From positions 1,240,001-1,304,000 of the forward strand of contig NZ_CP048405.1 of NCBI RefSeq assembly GCF_014084125.1: a stretch of 64,000 nt of DNA. The letters are read 5' to 3'. Numbering within the stretch: position 1 is the first letter of the stretch; each line of letters begins with the position of its first letter. A program made the translations under genes and the position numbers. The DNA is from Streptacidiphilus sp. PB12-B1b. Its GTDB lineage: Bacteria > Actinomycetota > Actinomycetes > Streptomycetales > Streptomycetaceae. A model generated the notes under the pieces. The model was not told the origin of the DNA. It made no database searches and saw nothing but the letters and a program-made list of their open reading frames with translations. Shown in pieces: positions 12,229-27,043 of the stretch.

Positions 12229-14232
12229 GTGCGTCCGGTTGGCAGCAAGTACCTGCTGGAGGAGCCGCTCGGCCGCGGCGCCACCGGTACCGTCTGGCGC
12301 GCCCGGGTACGGGACGAGGCCGGCGGCCCCGGCGACCAGGTCGTCGCCATCAAGGTCCTCAAGGAGGAGCTGGCGACCGACCCGGACATCGTCATGCGCT
12401 TCCTGCGGGAGCGCTCGGCGCTGCTGCGGCTGGTCCACCCCAACATCGTCCGGGTCCGCGACCTGGTGGTCGAGGGCGAGCTGCTGGCCCTGGTCATGGA
12501 CCTGGTCGACGGCCCCGACCTGCACCGCTACCTGAGCGCACAGGGCCCGCTGAGCGCCGTCGCGGGCTCGCTGCTGATGGCCCAGGTCGCCGACGCCCTC
12601 GCCACCAGCCACGCCGACGGCATCGTCCACCGCGACCTGAAGCCCGCCAACGTGCTGCTGGCCACCCTGCGCAGCGAGGACGGCACCGAGCAGATGCACC
12701 CGCTGCTCACCGACTTCGGCATCGCCCGGCTCGCCGACTCGCCCGGCATCACCCGCACCCACGAGTTCGTCGGCACCCCGGCGTACGTCGCCCCGGAATC
12801 CGCCGAGGGCCGCGAGCAGACCGCGGCCGTGGACGTCTACGGCGCCGGGATCATGCTGTACGAGCTGGTCACCGGGCGGCCGCCGTTCCACGGCGACGGG
12901 CCGCTGCAGATCCTGCAGGCGCACCTCAGCCAGGAGCCCGAGCGGCCCCGGAACCTGCCCGAGCCGCTGTGGACCGTGATCGAGGCCTGCCTGCGCAAGG
13001 ACCCGACCGCCCGGCCGACGGCGGTGACCCTGGCCACGGCGCTGCGCACGGTCGCCTCCGGCGTGGGCGTGCACGCCTCGCCCGCGGCCATCGACGCGGC
13101 CTTCGCCGTCGGCGCGCTGCTGGCCCCGGCCGCCCCGGCGGTCGACCCGCGCGGGGCGACCGTCCCGGACGGCCTGCGCTACGACCCGGCCGCGACCACC
13201 GTGCTCGCCGGCGGCTCGGGCCCCGGCGAGGGCTCGGGCCAGGGCTCCGGTCTGGACGGCGCGGGCCCGGAGGCCCGTACCGCCTTCCTGCCGCAGACGG
13301 GCCGGCCGGGGCAGACGGGCCAGGCAGGGCAGACGGCGCAGTTCGCGCAGACCGGGCAGCACGGCCAGTTCGGCTCGGCCGACCCGACCCAGCTGCTGCC
13401 CCCGGGCGCGGCTGACCCCACCCGGGTGCAGCCCGCCTTCCAGCAGGCCGGGCAGCAGACCACCCGGCAGCCCTGGGTGGAGCCGCAGGACGCCCCGGGG
13501 CAGCCCGAGGGCCCGCACCCGTGGCAGAGCCAGCTGCGGGCCGCCCGCACCCGCAACGAGCAGACCCAGATCGGCTACCCGGCCCCGGCCGAGCCGCAGC
13601 AGCGCTCCCGGCCGCAGGTGGCCCCGCCGCCGTACCGGGCCGCGCCCGGCGGCTACCAGGACGGCGGTCACCAAGGCGGCGGCTACCAGGACGCCGGATA
13701 TCAGGACGCCGGCTACCAGGCGGACCCGTACCAGCCGCAGCCGCAGCACCGTCCGGGCCAGAACGGGCAGGGCGGCCAGAACGGCCAGACCAGCCAGGAC
13801 GCCCGAGCCAGGGGCCGGTCCGGCGCGTACCCGCCGCAGTCCCCGCCGCCGCGGGCGCGGGAGCGGGCCGGGGGGCACATCCCGGAGCGCATCGCCGAGC
13901 CCGAGCCCGAGCGGGCACCGCGCTCCGCGCCGCCGCGCGAGCCGGAGCCCGAGCCGCGCCCGCGGCGCGAGCCGAGGCCCGCGCGCCGTCGGCGGATGCG
14001 CATCCCCGGTTCGGGCTGTCTGCGCACGCTGCTGATCCTGGCCGTCATCGTGGCCGTGATCTGGTACTTCACGCCGGTCCAGCACTGGATCCAGAACGTG
14101 GAGGGCTGGTGGCACCAGGTGAACCACTGGTTCCACAGCATCACCGGCGCGGCCGGCAGCGCCGCCAACAAGATCAAGAACGCCACCCCGACGCTGCCGT
14201 CGACGCCCTCTCTGCCGTCGGTCGGCAACTGA
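12229..14232 (+). CDS. Membrane Ser/Thr protein kinase, PkaA-like
   Basis: Hanks-type eukaryotic-like Ser/Thr kinase of 667 residues. Kinase domain at about residues 5-265: Gly-rich loop GRGATGTVW, catalytic Lys in VVAIKVLK (about 41), HRDLKPANVLL (about 134), TDFGIARL (about 161) and GTPAYVAPE, so it should be active. A 330-residue Gln/Pro/Gly-rich linker with GYQDGG-type repeats follows, then one membrane helix (about 596-615) and a 50-residue external tail. The GTG at 12229 is chosen for the GAGGAGCG site upstream. It lies directly before a second kinase and prfB, as remembered for S. coelicolor pkaA-pkaB-prfB. Substrates are unknown; the adjacent FHA protein is a candidate partner. Confidence 0.9.
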   Translation: MRPVGSKYLLEEPLGRGATGTVWRARVRDEAGGPGDQVVAIKVLKEELATDPDIVMRFLRERSALLRLVHPNIVRVRDLVVEGELLALVMDLVDGPDLHRYLSAQGPLSAVAGSLLMAQVADALATSHADGIVHRDLKPANVLLATLRSEDGTEQMHPLLTDFGIARLADSPGITRTHEFVGTPAYVAPESAEGREQTAAVDVYGAGIMLYELVTGRPPFHGDGPLQILQAHLSQEPERPRNLPEPLWTVIEACLRKDPTARPTAVTLATALRTVASGVGVHASPAAIDAAFAVGALLAPAAPAVDPRGATVPDGLRYDPAATTVLAGGSGPGEGSGQGSGLDGAGPEARTAFLPQTGRPGQTGQAGQTAQFAQTGQHGQFGSADPTQLLPPGAADPTRVQPAFQQAGQQTTRQPWVEPQDAPGQPEGPHPWQSQLRAARTRNEQTQIGYPAPAEPQQRSRPQVAPPPYRAAPGGYQDGGHQGGGYQDAGYQDAGYQADPYQPQPQHRPGQNGQGGQNGQTSQDARARGRSGAYPPQSPPPRARERAGGHIPERIAEPEPERAPRSAPPREPEPEPRPRREPRPARRRRMRIPGSGCLRTLLILAVIVAVIWYFTPVQHWIQNVEGWWHQVNHWFHSITGAAGSAANKIKNATPTLPSTPSLPSVGN

Positions 14233-21047: not shown

Positions 21048-21417
21048 GGGGGTGATCGGTTTCGACTGGGGATGTCGATCCAGGGGAAGCGAGCCGAGGA
21101 ACGCGGCAATGATCTCGTAAACCACGGGCCGCAAACTATAATCGCCAACTCCAAGCGCGATTCCTTCGCCCTCGCCGCCTGAGCGAGTAACCGAAGGTGT
21201 CAGACCGGGCGCGTTCCCGTCCCGGACCCTGGCATAATCTAGGGAACTCCACCGTCGTATCCGGTCACGGGGTGCGGCGGAAAATCAAACAGTGACTGGG
21301 CCTGTCGGCGGCTTGTCCGCGTGACTGCCGGGGCCGAGAAAAGCACAGCGGACTGCGCTCGGAGAAGCCCTGGTTCCGCACCACAGGACGCGGGTTCGAT
21401 TCCCGCCACCTCCACCA
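21048..21417 (+). ncRNA. ssrA: Transfer-messenger RNA (SsrA)
   Basis: tmRNA rescues stalled ribosomes. The 5' GGGGGTG (21048-21054) pairs with CACCTCC (21407-21413), leaving discriminator A and an encoded CCA at 21415-21417. The third pair is G21050-U21411, the G3-U70 identity element for alanyl-tRNA synthetase. The T-arm (GGTTCGATTCC-like) precedes the acceptor strand. The tag frame is 21144-21179 followed by TGA and encodes ANSKRDSFALAA, ending in the ClpXP-type ALAA degron. Length is 370 nt. Upstream smpB supports the call. The tag is shorter than the ANTKRDSSQQAFALAA I remember for S. coelicolor. Confidence 0.97.
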
Positions 21418-22646: not shown

Positions 22647-22743
22647 GGCTCCGCTGCCCCCTCCGGGCGGGCGATGGCGTAGGGTTGCCCGTCCCCCTTT
22701 GCGCCATGGGGACGCAATGCAGACCACGTACGACAGGGGGCCC

Positions 22744-25134
22744 ATGTCCGCGCCCAGCAGGACCGGCGGTACCAGCAGATCCGGCGACACACCGGCGACC
22801 GGCGACACACCGGCGACCGCGGAGGCACCGGCGGCGTCGCGCACGCCCGCCGACGCGCACGCGCACGCCGAGACGCTGCGCGACCGCGAGATCGCCGTGG
22901 AGCAGCTCCACCTCGACCAGGTGTACCACCGCCTGGAGGAGAAGCTCGCCGAGGCCGAGTTCATCCTCGACGACGCCAGCCGCAAGTTCCAGGTCGGCAC
23001 GCCCGGCGCGCTGGCCGAGCGCGACGCGCAGGTGTTCCAGGCCGGAGCCCATCTGAACCGGCTGAACAGCGAGTTCGAGGACTTCCTGTTCGGCCGGATC
23101 GACCTGCAGCAGCCCGACCGCCCGGAGGAGGACGGCTTCCCCTCGCAGACGCCGCTGGACCCGGCCGACCCGGTCGTCGCCGAGTCGCTGCACATCGGCC
23201 GGATCGGGGTGCTGGACGCCGAGTACGGGCCGCTGGTCATCGACTGGCGCGCGCCCGCCGCCGCGCCGTTCTACCGGGCCACCCCGCTGCAGCCGGGCCG
23301 GGTGCTGCGCCGCCGGGTGATCCGCTCGCGCGGCCGACGGGTGCTCGGCGTCGAGGACGACCTGCTGCGCCCCGAGCTGGAGCCGCTGCTGGACGGCCAG
23401 CCGCTGGCGGTCATCGGCGACGGCGCGCTGATGGCGACCCTGGGCCGGGCCCGCAGCCACACCATGCGCGACATCGTCTCCAGCATCCAGCAGGAGCAGG
23501 ACATCGTGATCCGGGCCGCCGCGGCCGGGGCGACCCTGGTCACCGGCGGCCCCGGGACCGGCAAGACCGCCGTGGCGCTGCACCGGGCGGCGTTCCTGCT
23601 CTACCAGGACCGGCGCCGGTACGCGGGCGGCATCCTGGTGGTCAGCCCGACGCCGCTGCTGGTCTCGTACACCGAGGGCGTGCTGCCCGCGCTGGGCGAG
23701 GAGGGCCAGGTGGCCATCCGCGCCGTGGGCAGCCTGGTCGACGGCATCGAGGCCGACGCCTACGACAGCCCGGAGGCGGCCCGGGTCAAGGGCTCCTCGC
23801 GGATGGTGGCGCTGATGCGCCGCGCCGCCCGGGCCGCCCTGGACGTCGACGACACCCCCGCCGAGCTGCGGGTGGTCGCGCTCGGGGAGGTCCTGCGGCT
23901 GGACGCCAACGCGCTGCGCGGCCTGCGCCGCACCGTGCTGGGCACCGGCGGCACCCCCGTCAACCTGCTGCGCCCGCGCGCCCGCAGGCTGCTGCTGGAC
24001 GCCCTGTGGTCGCTGCTGCTGCGCACCCGGCCGCGCAGCGGCGAGCGGGTCGACCGCGAGCAGCAGCAGCGCGAGCGGGAGGCGTTCGACGAGCACGTCA
24101 GCGACGACGACGCGTTCCTGGCCTTCCTGGACGCCTGGTGGCCCGCGCTGACGCCGCGCCGGGTGCTGGCGACCCTGCGCGACCAGCGCCGGATCGGCCG
24201 GCTGGTGCGCGGCGAGCTGAGCCAGCAGGAGTCCCGGCTGATCGCCGGCTCCTGGCGGCACCTGGACGACGAGGGCCGGGGCAGCGTCACCGCGCACGAT
24301 GTGGCGCTGCTGGACGAGCTGGGGCTGCTGCTGGGCGAGGCCGCACGGCCGCGCGCCCGGGAGGTGAACCCGGTGGACCTGCTGACCGGCCTGGAGGAGG
24401 TCACCACCTTCGCCGAGCGCACCCGCCGCTCCTGGGACCAGCGCCGCGAGCCGGTGGAGCGCACCGAGTACGCGCACGTCATCGTGGACGAGGCGCAGGA
24501 CCTCACGCCGATGCAGTGGCGGATGATCGGCCGCCGCGCCCGCCAGGCCACCTGGACGATCGTCGGCGACCCGGCGCAGAGCTCCTGGATCGATCCGGCC
24601 GAGGCGCAGGCCGCGATGGACGAGACCCTGGGCGGCAAGCAGCGCCGCCGCTACACGCTCACCACCAACTACCGGAACCCGGCCGAGATCGCCGAGGTGG
24701 CGGCGCGCATCCTGGCGCAGGCCGCGCCGGGCACGGAGGCGCCGAACGCGGTGCGCTCCACCGGCGTCCACCCGCGGTTCGTCTCGGTGGCGCAGGAGGA
24801 GCGGGTGGGGGCGGCGGCCCGGGCCGAGGTCGAACGGCTGCTGGCGGAGGTGGACGGCACGGTCGGCATCGTCGTCCCGATGGACCGCCGGGAGGAGGCC
24901 GCGGGCTGGATCGCCGGGCTGGGGACGCGGGCGGTGGCGCTGGGCAGCCTGGAGGCCAAGGGCCTGGAGTACGACGCCACCGTGGTCGCCGACCCGTCCG
25001 GCATCGCCGGGGAGTCCGACGCGGGGCTGCGGGTGCTGTACGTGGCGCTGACCCGGGCGACCCAGCGGCTGACCGTGCTGTCCGGGCCGCTGGACCTGCC
25101 GGACGCGGACGGGGTGCCCGCCCTGCTGCAGTGA
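22744..25134 (+). CDS. HelD-type RNA polymerase-associated superfamily 1 helicase
   Basis: A 796-residue UvrD/Rep-like ATPase of the HelD family, which pulls stalled RNA polymerase off DNA and in streptomycetes includes rifamycin-resistance HelR proteins. A Thr/Ala-rich disordered N-terminus (about 1-45) precedes the HelD coiled coil (HLDQVYHRLEEKLAEAEF) and the IGRIGVLDAEYGPLVIDWRAP segment. Walker A is GGPGTGKTAVALHRAA (about 268) and Walker B VIVDEAQDLTPMQWRMIGRRA (about 580); the C-terminal LYVALTRATQRL motif VI is intact. ATG 22744 is chosen over 22699 because it follows GACAGGGGGCCC. I looked for the palindromic rifamycin-associated element upstream and did not see it. Confidence 0.88.
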   Translation: MSAPSRTGGTSRSGDTPATGDTPATAEAPAASRTPADAHAHAETLRDREIAVEQLHLDQVYHRLEEKLAEAEFILDDASRKFQVGTPGALAERDAQVFQAGAHLNRLNSEFEDFLFGRIDLQQPDRPEEDGFPSQTPLDPADPVVAESLHIGRIGVLDAEYGPLVIDWRAPAAAPFYRATPLQPGRVLRRRVIRSRGRRVLGVEDDLLRPELEPLLDGQPLAVIGDGALMATLGRARSHTMRDIVSSIQQEQDIVIRAAAAGATLVTGGPGTGKTAVALHRAAFLLYQDRRRYAGGILVVSPTPLLVSYTEGVLPALGEEGQVAIRAVGSLVDGIEADAYDSPEAARVKGSSRMVALMRRAARAALDVDDTPAELRVVALGEVLRLDANALRGLRRTVLGTGGTPVNLLRPRARRLLLDALWSLLLRTRPRSGERVDREQQQREREAFDEHVSDDDAFLAFLDAWWPALTPRRVLATLRDQRRIGRLVRGELSQQESRLIAGSWRHLDDEGRGSVTAHDVALLDELGLLLGEAARPRAREVNPVDLLTGLEEVTTFAERTRRSWDQRREPVERTEYAHVIVDEAQDLTPMQWRMIGRRARQATWTIVGDPAQSSWIDPAEAQAAMDETLGGKQRRRYTLTTNYRNPAEIAEVAARILAQAAPGTEAPNAVRSTGVHPRFVSVAQEERVGAAARAEVERLLAEVDGTVGIVVPMDRREEAAGWIAGLGTRAVALGSLEAKGLEYDATVVADPSGIAGESDAGLRVLYVALTRATQRLTVLSGPLDLPDADGVPALLQ

Positions 25135-25194
25135 CGTTGCGCCTGCCGTTCCTGCCGTGACGTCGCGCCTGCCGTGACGCCGCGGCAGGAACGA

Positions 25195-25229
25195 CGAAGG
25201 CTCCCCACCGGTGGGGTGGGGAGCCTTCG
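25195..25229. terminator. Strong bidirectional terminator
   Basis: Perfect 15-bp stem (25195-25209 with 25215-25229) with a 5-nt loop. It can end the HelD transcript from the left and the candidate minus-strand RNA from the right. Confidence 0.85.
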
Positions 25230-25334
25230 CTGACGGTCAGTGCGACACCGACCCGCCATGCTCGCCTCGCGGCAAGTGGTCGCTCGAAGCGACTAAGGTT
25301 GGGCCCGGGGGCTTGGATCGAGCCGGTGTCGCAC
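25195..25334 (-). ncRNA. Candidate structured small RNA, about 140 nt
   Basis: Read on the minus strand, GUGCGACACCG (25334-25324) pairs perfectly with CGGUGUCGCAC (25250-25240), closing a domain of about 73 nt. Inside are GUCGCU-UCG-AGCGAC and CUUGCC-GCGA-GGCGAG hairpins, the second with a GNRA loop. The strong hairpin at 25229-25195 follows as terminator. A -10 hexamer TAGTCT lies at 25344-25339, placing the 5' end at about the first paired base. I do not recognise the family; it is not 6S, SRP, RNase P or tmRNA by eye. Plus-strand folding is equally possible from sequence alone. Confidence 0.5.
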
Positions 25335-25338
25335 ACCC

Positions 25339-25344
25339 AGACTA
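25339..25344 (-). promoter_or_regulatory. -10 element for the candidate small RNA
   Basis: TAGTCT on the minus strand fits TAnnnT and sits about 6 nt before the first base of the outer helix. The -35 is weak. Confidence 0.4.
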
Positions 25345-25509
25345 ACAAAGCCTCCCGGGAACGCATTCCCTTCGCCGGAGAAACTTCCGCACCGTGATCA
25401 CGACCGGTGCCCGCGCGCCGCCCCCGGGGCCCCCGTTCGGCCGCTGTTTCCCCCGTGGCCACGGGGATTTCGGCCGATCCCGGGCTGTCCGCGCAGTGGA
25501 ACAATATTT

Positions 25510-25531
25510 CCACTTACCCGCTGGTAGGTGG
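25510..25531. promoter_or_regulatory. Palindromic operator-like site upstream of malic enzyme
   Basis: CCACTTACC (25510-25518) and GGTAGGTGG (25523-25531) form a 9-bp dyad with one wobble position and a 4-nt centre, about 60 bp before the gene, in a locally AT-richer stretch. Confidence 0.3.
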
Positions 25532-25591
25532 GATCATCGAAGCGAAATCTGCGACCGAGCACAGCGAACAGCGCCCATGGAAGAAGGAACG

Positions 25592-27043
25592 ATGGCAACG
25601 GTGCCAAGCGTGTCGAACTCGATCACGGTTCGTATGGAGGTCCCGGCCCGTGGCAACGCGGTGAGCCAGATCACCACCCTGGTGGAGTCCTCCGGCGGGT
25701 CCGTCACCGGCCTCGACGTCACCGCTTCCGGCCTCGAGGCGCTGCGCATCGACGTCACCATCGCCGCCGCCTCCGTGGCCCACGCCGAGGAGATCGTCGA
25801 CAAGCTGCGCACCATCGACGGCGTCGAGATCGGCAAGGTTTCCGACCGCACCTTCCTGCTGCACCTCGGCGGCAAGATCGAGATGTCGTCCAAGCTGCCG
25901 ATCCGCAACCGCGACGACCTCAGCATGATCTACACCCCCGGGGTCGCCCGGGTGTGCATGGCCATCGCCGAGAACCCGGAGGACGCCCGCCGGCTCACCA
26001 TCAAGCGCAACAGCGTCGCCGTGGTGACCGACGGCTCGGCCGTGCTCGGCCTCGGCAACATCGGCCCGATGGCCGCGCTGCCGGTGATGGAGGGCAAGGC
26101 CGCGCTGTTCAAGCGCTTCGCCGGGATCGACGCCTGGCCGATCTGCCTGGACACCCAGGACAGCGACGAGATCGTCGCCATCGTCAAGGCCATCGCGCCG
26201 GGCTTCGCCGGGATCAACCTGGAGGACATCTCCGCGCCGCGCTGCTTCGAGATCGAGGCCCGGCTGCGCGAGGCCCTGGACATCCCGGTCTTCCACGACG
26301 ACCAGCACGGCACCGCCATCGTCGTCCTGGCCGCGCTCACCAACGCGCTGCAGGTGGTCGGCAAGGAGATCGGCGACGTACGGGTGGTCATGTCCGGCGC
26401 CGGGGCGGCCGGCACGGCCATCCTGCGGCTGCTGCTGGACGCCGGGGTGCGCCACGCCACCGTCGCCGACGTGCAGGGCGTCGTCCACCTCGGCCGGGAG
26501 GACCTGGACGACTCGCTGCGCTGGATCGCCGAGAACACCAACCGCAGCAACCGCACCGGCACGCTGAAGGAGGCCGTGCGCGGCGCCGACGTCTTCATCG
26601 GCGTCTCCGCGCCCAACGTGCTGGACGGCGAGGACATCGCCGCCATGGCCTCGGACGCCATCGTCTTCGCGCTGGCCAACCCCGACCCGGAGGTGGACCC
26701 GGCGGTGGCCCGGCAGACCGCCGCCGTCGTCGCCACCGGGCGCAGCGACTTCCCCAACCAGATCAACAATGTACTGGTGTTCCCGGGCGTCTTCCGCGGC
26801 CTGCTGGACGCGCAGAGCCGCACCGTCAACAGCGAGATGATGATCGCCGCCGCCCGGGCGCTGGCCGCGACCGTCGCCCCCGAGCAGCTCAACGCCAACT
26901 ACATCATCCCCAGCGTGTTCCACCCGGACGTCTCCAAGACCGTGGCCGCCGCCGTCCGCGAGGCCGCCCAGGCGGCGGGTGAGGCGCAGGCCGCACCGGT
27001 GTCGGCGGGCGAGCCGGGCGGCGCCCCGGTGGTCCACGTCTGA
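25592..27043 (+). CDS. NAD(P)-dependent malic enzyme with N-terminal ACT domain
   Basis: Decarboxylates malate to pyruvate. 483 residues: an ACT regulatory domain (about 8-85, SNSITVRMEVP to IGKVSDRTFLLHL) typical of actinobacterial and archaeal-type malic enzymes, then the catalytic domain with YTPGVARVC (about 112), GKAALFKRFAGIDAWPICLD and DDQHGTAIV, and a Rossmann domain with MSGAGAAGTAI (about 266). Two starts are possible: ATG 25577 (MEEGTM) and ATG 25592 (MATVPSVSN). The second follows GAAGGAAC and matches the family start. NAD versus NADP use cannot be decided by eye. The ACT domain suggests allosteric control by a small ligand. Confidence 0.93.
   Translation: MATVPSVSNSITVRMEVPARGNAVSQITTLVESSGGSVTGLDVTASGLEALRIDVTIAAASVAHAEEIVDKLRTIDGVEIGKVSDRTFLLHLGGKIEMSSKLPIRNRDDLSMIYTPGVARVCMAIAENPEDARRLTIKRNSVAVVTDGSAVLGLGNIGPMAALPVMEGKAALFKRFAGIDAWPICLDTQDSDEIVAIVKAIAPGFAGINLEDISAPRCFEIEARLREALDIPVFHDDQHGTAIVVLAALTNALQVVGKEIGDVRVVMSGAGAAGTAILRLLLDAGVRHATVADVQGVVHLGREDLDDSLRWIAENTNRSNRTGTLKEAVRGADVFIGVSAPNVLDGEDIAAMASDAIVFALANPDPEVDPAVARQTAAVVATGRSDFPNQINNVLVFPGVFRGLLDAQSRTVNSEMMIAAARALAATVAPEQLNANYIIPSVFHPDVSKTVAAAVREAAQAAGEAQAAPVSAGEPGGAPVVHV

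Follow-up and report, generated by a model that had tools for sequence, protein, structure and literature searches.

A predicted structured RNA gene between helD and the malic enzyme gene of Streptacidiphilus: relatives across the Actinomycetes and a sigmaR/SigH-type promoter motif

We start with the intergenic interval at positions 25135 to 25576 of a 64,000-nucleotide stretch of the Streptacidiphilus sp. PB12-B1b genome (the window; contig NZ_CP048405.1, positions 1,240,001 to 1,304,000). On one side of the interval is a gene for a HelD-like RNA polymerase recycling helicase (SCO2952 homologue, 22720-25134, plus strand) and on the other side a gene for a malic enzyme with an ACT domain (25577-27043, plus strand), both of them outside the RNA gene considered here. 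An earlier note, made from the sequence letters, had proposed that the minus strand of this interval carries a self-contained RNA gene. The surroundings hold three further features. The helD 3' region (25138-25195) contains short repeated TGCCGTGACG-like units, which are hairpin-capable and a source of chance Rfam matches; an imperfect palindrome (TTACCCGCTGGTAGG, 25512-25532), perhaps an operator, lies shortly upstream of the malic enzyme gene; and the window also has a tmRNA gene (21048-21417, plus strand; RF00023, 157 bits).

The predicted RNA gene occupies positions 25194 to 25336 on the minus strand, as delimited by the fold and a covariance model match, and has about 140 to 145 nt including a terminator hairpin; the core without the terminator has about 110 nt and two inner hairpins. 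Its 5' end is placed near 25334-25337 from the promoter position and the start of the outer helix, and its 3' end is an estimate as well. The minus-strand fold of 25190-25336 has an energy of -87.7 kcal/mol, compared with -58.1 for shuffled sequences (z = -7.9). Because both strands of 25195-25344 fold well (z = -6.4 for the minus and -5.3 for the plus strand), the choice of strand had to rest on comparative data.

The fold is closed by the outer helix P1 (16 bp; 5' arm 25319-25334, 3' arm 25240-25255, minus strand), which is defined by the fold and by covariation. The 11-bp perfect helix reported in the earlier note is part of it, 25240-25250 (GTGCGACACCG) and 25324-25334 (CGGTGTCGCAC) being exact reverse complements of each other. 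The two inner stem-loops reported with it, one having a GNRA loop, both appear in the minus-strand fold: P3 (GUCGCUUCGAGCGAC, 25279-25293) is a UNCG-like hairpin with one covarying pair, and P4 (CUUGCCGCGAGGCGAG, 25261-25276) has the GNRA loop GCGA and is assigned from fold, conservation and the covariation tally. The minus-strand segment CCCCCGGGCCC (25301-25311) falls on invariant columns of the 59-sequence alignment described below; it is near-invariant and unpaired in the family consensus, CCCCGGG-YYCCA. As to the terminator proposed at one end, the fold contains a near-palindromic, terminator-like hairpin of 16 bp (25194-25230, minus strand), separate from P1, but a clean U-tract is absent in this genome. 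This hairpin may double as the helD terminator on the plus strand.

The next question is whether relatives preserve this fold. The covariance model (R1) is built from an alignment (A1) of 59 diverse members, in which 23 columns are invariant, and it matches the window at 25228-25345 on the minus strand with 77.9 bits (E 1.4e-15). In a 98-member alignment, whose counts lean towards the structure because it was fitted to the model, 13 of the 20 pairs have changes on both sides, standard base pairs make up 96.9% of the cells in these pairs, and there are 223 compensatory cells compared with 58 after shuffling; the signal collapses once the partners are shifted by 1 to 3 columns. The first alignment, which was not fitted to the model, gives a similar covariation result. 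P1 has double-sided compensatory changes in all nine modelled pairs, while P3 has one pair that covaries between C-G and U-A (both sides changed in 35 of the 98 sequences) and is otherwise mostly invariant. When mutual information is calculated with no structure prior, the top ranks go to P1, to P3 and to P2, a short inner helix. The same measure finds no covarying partner for the near-invariant CCCCGGG segment, and a pseudoknot involving this segment was dropped for that reason. Covariance analysis of homologous loci, a check suggested in the earlier note, has returned many compensatory changes.

The strand follows from the wobble pairs: the helix cells contain 79 G-U and 3 A-C, an asymmetry that identifies the RNA as the minus strand of the window. 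Some relatives have a U-tailed terminator directly 3' of the RNA on the same strand, and hairpins of at least 8 perfect base pairs are found 3' of it in 30 of 141 relatives, compared with 1.2% of shuffles. Loop lengths differ by 1 or 2 bases, so that no reading frame is preserved. A coding gene is ruled out by these differences, which are not multiples of three. With compensatory changes, a predicted promoter and terminator of its own and no conserved frame, the element has the sequence characteristics of an independent structured non-coding RNA gene; the reading of the earlier note is upheld by the compensatory changes, and its choice of the minus strand by the G-U to A-C asymmetry.

The element is not confined to this genus. 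Nucleotide searches detect it in 36 of the 37 Streptomycetaceae searched and in 57 of 198 genomes taken from across the class. With the covariance model it is detected in 254 of the 395 class genomes (a lower bound, as laxer filters bring out more divergent members in the order), including 40 of 40 Streptomycetaceae, with one copy per genome as the rule. In the rest of the phylum the model gives two marginal matches alone (E about 0.01). The carriers include Streptomyces, Kitasatospora, Cellulomonas, Microbacterium, Leifsonia, Brevibacterium, Rothia, Kocuria, Nocardioides, Jiangella and [Mycobacterium] manitobense. A plasmid search finds Rhodococcus as the sole plasmid carrier; its copies (six loci) are on large, mostly linear plasmids, have GGAAT-N18-GTT upstream where checked, and occupy five matching places on one plasmid of 984 kb. 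A phage search gives no match. In the viral collection IMG/VR a single contig, which may be virus or host DNA, bears the motif (12476-12523). There is also a divergent subfamily of about 140 nt with an extended P3 hairpin (eleven loci, seven of them from the same order), which some genomes of the Streptomyces family have as their second copy. One genome has three extra copies, and in a further family of the order no other copy was found. The extended-P3 copies that were read have a promoter GGAAC/GGGAAG-N16-18-GTT in front.

We now consider the promoter. The sequence GGAAT-N18-GTT is present at genome positions 1265344-1265369 (minus strand), giving a predicted -35 GGAAT at 25365-25369 and a predicted -10 GTT at 25344-25346 of the window, both assigned by match to the consensus of sigmaR/SigH-type (ECF) promoters. 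The predicted -10 overlaps the TAnnnT -10 described in the earlier note, which is indeed there as TAGTCT (25339-25344, minus strand). The element agrees with the published consensus of sigmaR, GGAAT-N18-19-GTT (PMC9205884; PMC2375139), and with that of SigH (PMC10012870); by sequence, the site has the upstream promoter of a sigmaR/SigH regulon member. This genome contains 131 sites of this kind (N17-19) over 15.3 Mb of strand; at this density, one would fall by chance within 40 positions of the start of the RNA with a probability near 3e-4. Among 142 non-redundant loci, GGAAY-N17-19-GTT lies upstream in 54 (0.6 expected), with a sharp peak at a spacing of exactly N18 (40 occurrences). The motif is found in 38 of 46 Streptomycetaceae and, with N18, in all same-genus loci inspected, and the divergent second copies in Streptomycetaceae have an ECF-type motif too. 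TAnnnT is present in 114 of the 142 loci, together with the ECF-type motif in 36; the Rothia and Nocardioides loci are mostly sigmaA-type in appearance. Since the ECF-type motif is missing in 88 of the 142 loci, stress control would not be universal. In S. coelicolor, 75 of 105 sRNAs are under HrdB.

The genes next to the RNA change from family to family. In Streptomycetaceae the RNA precedes the malic enzyme gene, in the same direction in 42 loci and in the opposite direction in 37, and the promoter travels with the RNA. The orientation is largely clade-wise, opposite in Kitasatospora-like genomes and the same in most Streptomyces, in a comparison that includes 50 loci and named Streptomyces loci. 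HelD adjoins the RNA in Streptomycetaceae only. In two mycobacteria-like loci the RNA follows a WhiB-like gene, which we take to resemble WhiB6, with an EVE-domain gene close by and GGAAT-N18-GTT upstream. In several Micrococcales and Propionibacteriales the neighbours resemble genes of a PitA/DUF47 phosphate system. A conserved protein of 200-240 aa with the motif HRP..F...DP also adjoins the RNA in these two orders (six loci), and no Pfam match is found for the two such proteins tested. On the Rhodococcus plasmids the neighbours are mIHF, Lsr2, Rep or DNA ligase genes. These shifting neighbours and orientations, like the class-wide spread, the sigmaR-type promoter and the plasmid copies, were absent from the earlier note.

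Combining this information, we favour a reading that we regard as probable, in which the minus-strand element is a gene in its own right whose product, a structured non-coding RNA about 140 nt long from a family spread over the class Actinomycetes, would act in trans under stress-sigma control here and in many lineages, with protein binding likelier than antisense pairing. From the promoter sequences, transcription by sigmaR/SigH (the ECF factors of thiol-oxidative and heat stress) would be expected in this genus, in most Streptomycetaceae, in the mycobacteria-like loci, on the Rhodococcus plasmids and in many Micrococcales; sigmaA, using TAnnnT, would probably contribute alongside, and in the remaining lineages it would act alone. 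The RNA would bind a protein or a ribonucleoprotein and alter its activity under stress. Protein binding seems the more likely mode because P3 and P4 have invariant residues in stem and loop alike, for which antisense pairing would have no need; as it draws on conservation only, we hold it with less certainty than stress induction. More specifically, and tentatively, the product may be a compact protein-binding RNA, controlled by sigmaR/SigH, that under thiol-oxidative stress modulates a core machine, be it the ribosome, RNA polymerase or a nucleoid protein; this proposal takes in the long-P3 paralogues and the plasmid copies next to nucleoid-protein genes.

The main rival is a trans-acting antisense sRNA, in which the exposed CCCCGGG-YYCCA would be the seed for mRNAs under stress and the helices would just display it. 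Many stress sRNAs act through antisense seed pairing, and the segment has suitable properties, being nearly invariant, unpaired in the consensus and free of a covarying partner. However, the seed model leaves the equal invariance of the P3 and P4 residues without a use, and a 7-mer rich in C and G would find many sites in GC-rich genomes; we regard this reading as somewhat doubtful, though a serious competitor. An RNA polymerase-binding RNA of the 6S/Ms1 kind is improbable. The long outer helix around a loosely paired centre is reminiscent of it, as is the RNA polymerase recycling factor gene that adjoins the RNA in Streptomycetaceae, but helD is no neighbour beyond this family, and the RNA is too short (about 110 nt without the terminator, compared with at least about 160 nt; PMC9130861). 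Moreover, Ms1 of S. coelicolor is scr3559, from a different interval, and in the text of a native RIP-seq study in this species scr3559 and scr0792 alone are named as strong RNA polymerase binders (PMC11077062). Identity with 6S/Ms1 was dropped on length, locus and the missing model match.

Two further readings would deny the RNA its independence or its existence, and both are given very little probability. As a cis element, it would be a riboswitch or leader of the malic enzyme gene or a structure in the helD 3' UTR, and in nearly all inspected Streptomycetaceae loci it does lie directly between these two genes. Yet its orientation to both varies by lineage while RNA and promoter stay together, in this genus its strand is opposite to that of both flanking genes, and in other families the neighbours are unrelated; a cis role is unlikely on these grounds, and a riboswitch or leader was rejected because the element keeps neither a fixed place nor a fixed strand with respect to any gene that it might regulate. 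As a DNA element (a cruciform, a protein-binding repeat or a mobile cassette), it would account for the inverted-repeat architecture, the changes of orientation and the Rhodococcus plasmid copies. Against this, the 79 to 3 asymmetry marks a single-stranded RNA of one strand, a promoter and a terminator are predicted at the flanks, and one copy per genome is the rule, so that we find this reading hardly credible. Mobile DNA was set aside on the lack of a phage match, the single IMG/VR contig, the restriction of plasmid copies to Rhodococcus and the usual single copy, and inversion in situ between the P1 arms is ruled out by the promoter, which moves with the RNA in both orientations.

The trans-acting, stress-controlled RNA that we favour would be of interest for several reasons. 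Few bacterial RNAs combine class-wide conservation with more than 20 invariant positions, and those that do (tmRNA, 6S/Ms1, SRP, RNase P) have central jobs. This one is present in most Actinomycetes sampled, among them antibiotic producers, mycobacteria-like species and skin and soil genera, and is outside Rfam. The thiol-oxidative stress promoter motif in many lineages poses a concrete question, namely what role a sigmaR/SigH-controlled structured RNA would have upon thiol oxidation. The covariance model would let genome annotators detect the RNA.

How the element relates to known RNAs can be seen from databases and the literature. Neither the element of the window nor any of about 40 relatives, which come from many families, reaches the gathering threshold of an Rfam 15 family. 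This bears out the impression in the earlier note that it belongs to no recognisable RNA family; at E <= 10 the window gives nothing relevant, the matches being ones that the terminator hairpin and the repeats in the helD 3' region produce by chance. The note also held a vague memory of a small RNA in the homologous S. coelicolor interval, which scr2952 fits by its name, by the identity of HelD and by verified expression. According to PMC8388888, scr2952 (Vockenhuber et al. 2011) is an expression-verified sRNA with no assigned function and with conservation in over half of the tested Streptomyces; the paper also places it in Rfam, yet no Rfam 15 family matches this interval. As scr3559 and scr0792 demonstrate, an sRNA called scrN is encoded between the genes SCO(N-1) and SCO(N); SCO2952 is HelD (PMC8655204), which puts scr2952 in the homologous interval. 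Matched by name, interval and conservation alone, scr2952 is very probably the homologue of this RNA, which in Streptomyces has then very probably been observed already. A search of the openly available literature, in its main texts, finds no SigR/SigH-dependent or class-wide actinobacterial sRNA, and the main texts of three structured-RNA surveys have no evident counterpart. The transcript is therefore already named, while its family, structure, class-wide spread and promoter class appear to be undescribed in the searchable literature.

The closest known system is scr2952 itself, which resembles the element in being expressed, conserved and, by name, located in the helD/malic enzyme interval; it differs in that it stands as one transcript without function, for which we find no description of a family across the class, of a consensus structure or of a sigmaR-type promoter. 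The tmRNA (RF00023) is likewise a conserved structured RNA, also present in the window, but unrelated in sequence and structure. The 6C RNA (RF01066) is another widespread actinobacterial sRNA with conserved C-rich residues, but it consists of two stem-loops with C-rich loops, and we know of no closing outer helix in it; its only local match here scores 18.2 bits, where the threshold is 47, and falls for the most part within the terminator hairpin. The 6S RNA and Ms1 (scr3559 in S. coelicolor) exceed the element in length, come from other intervals and are abundant RNAs that bind polymerase, and no Rfam 6S match occurs here; they share with the element a long outer helix with an open centre and an independent gene, and Ms1 is likewise Actinobacteria-wide.
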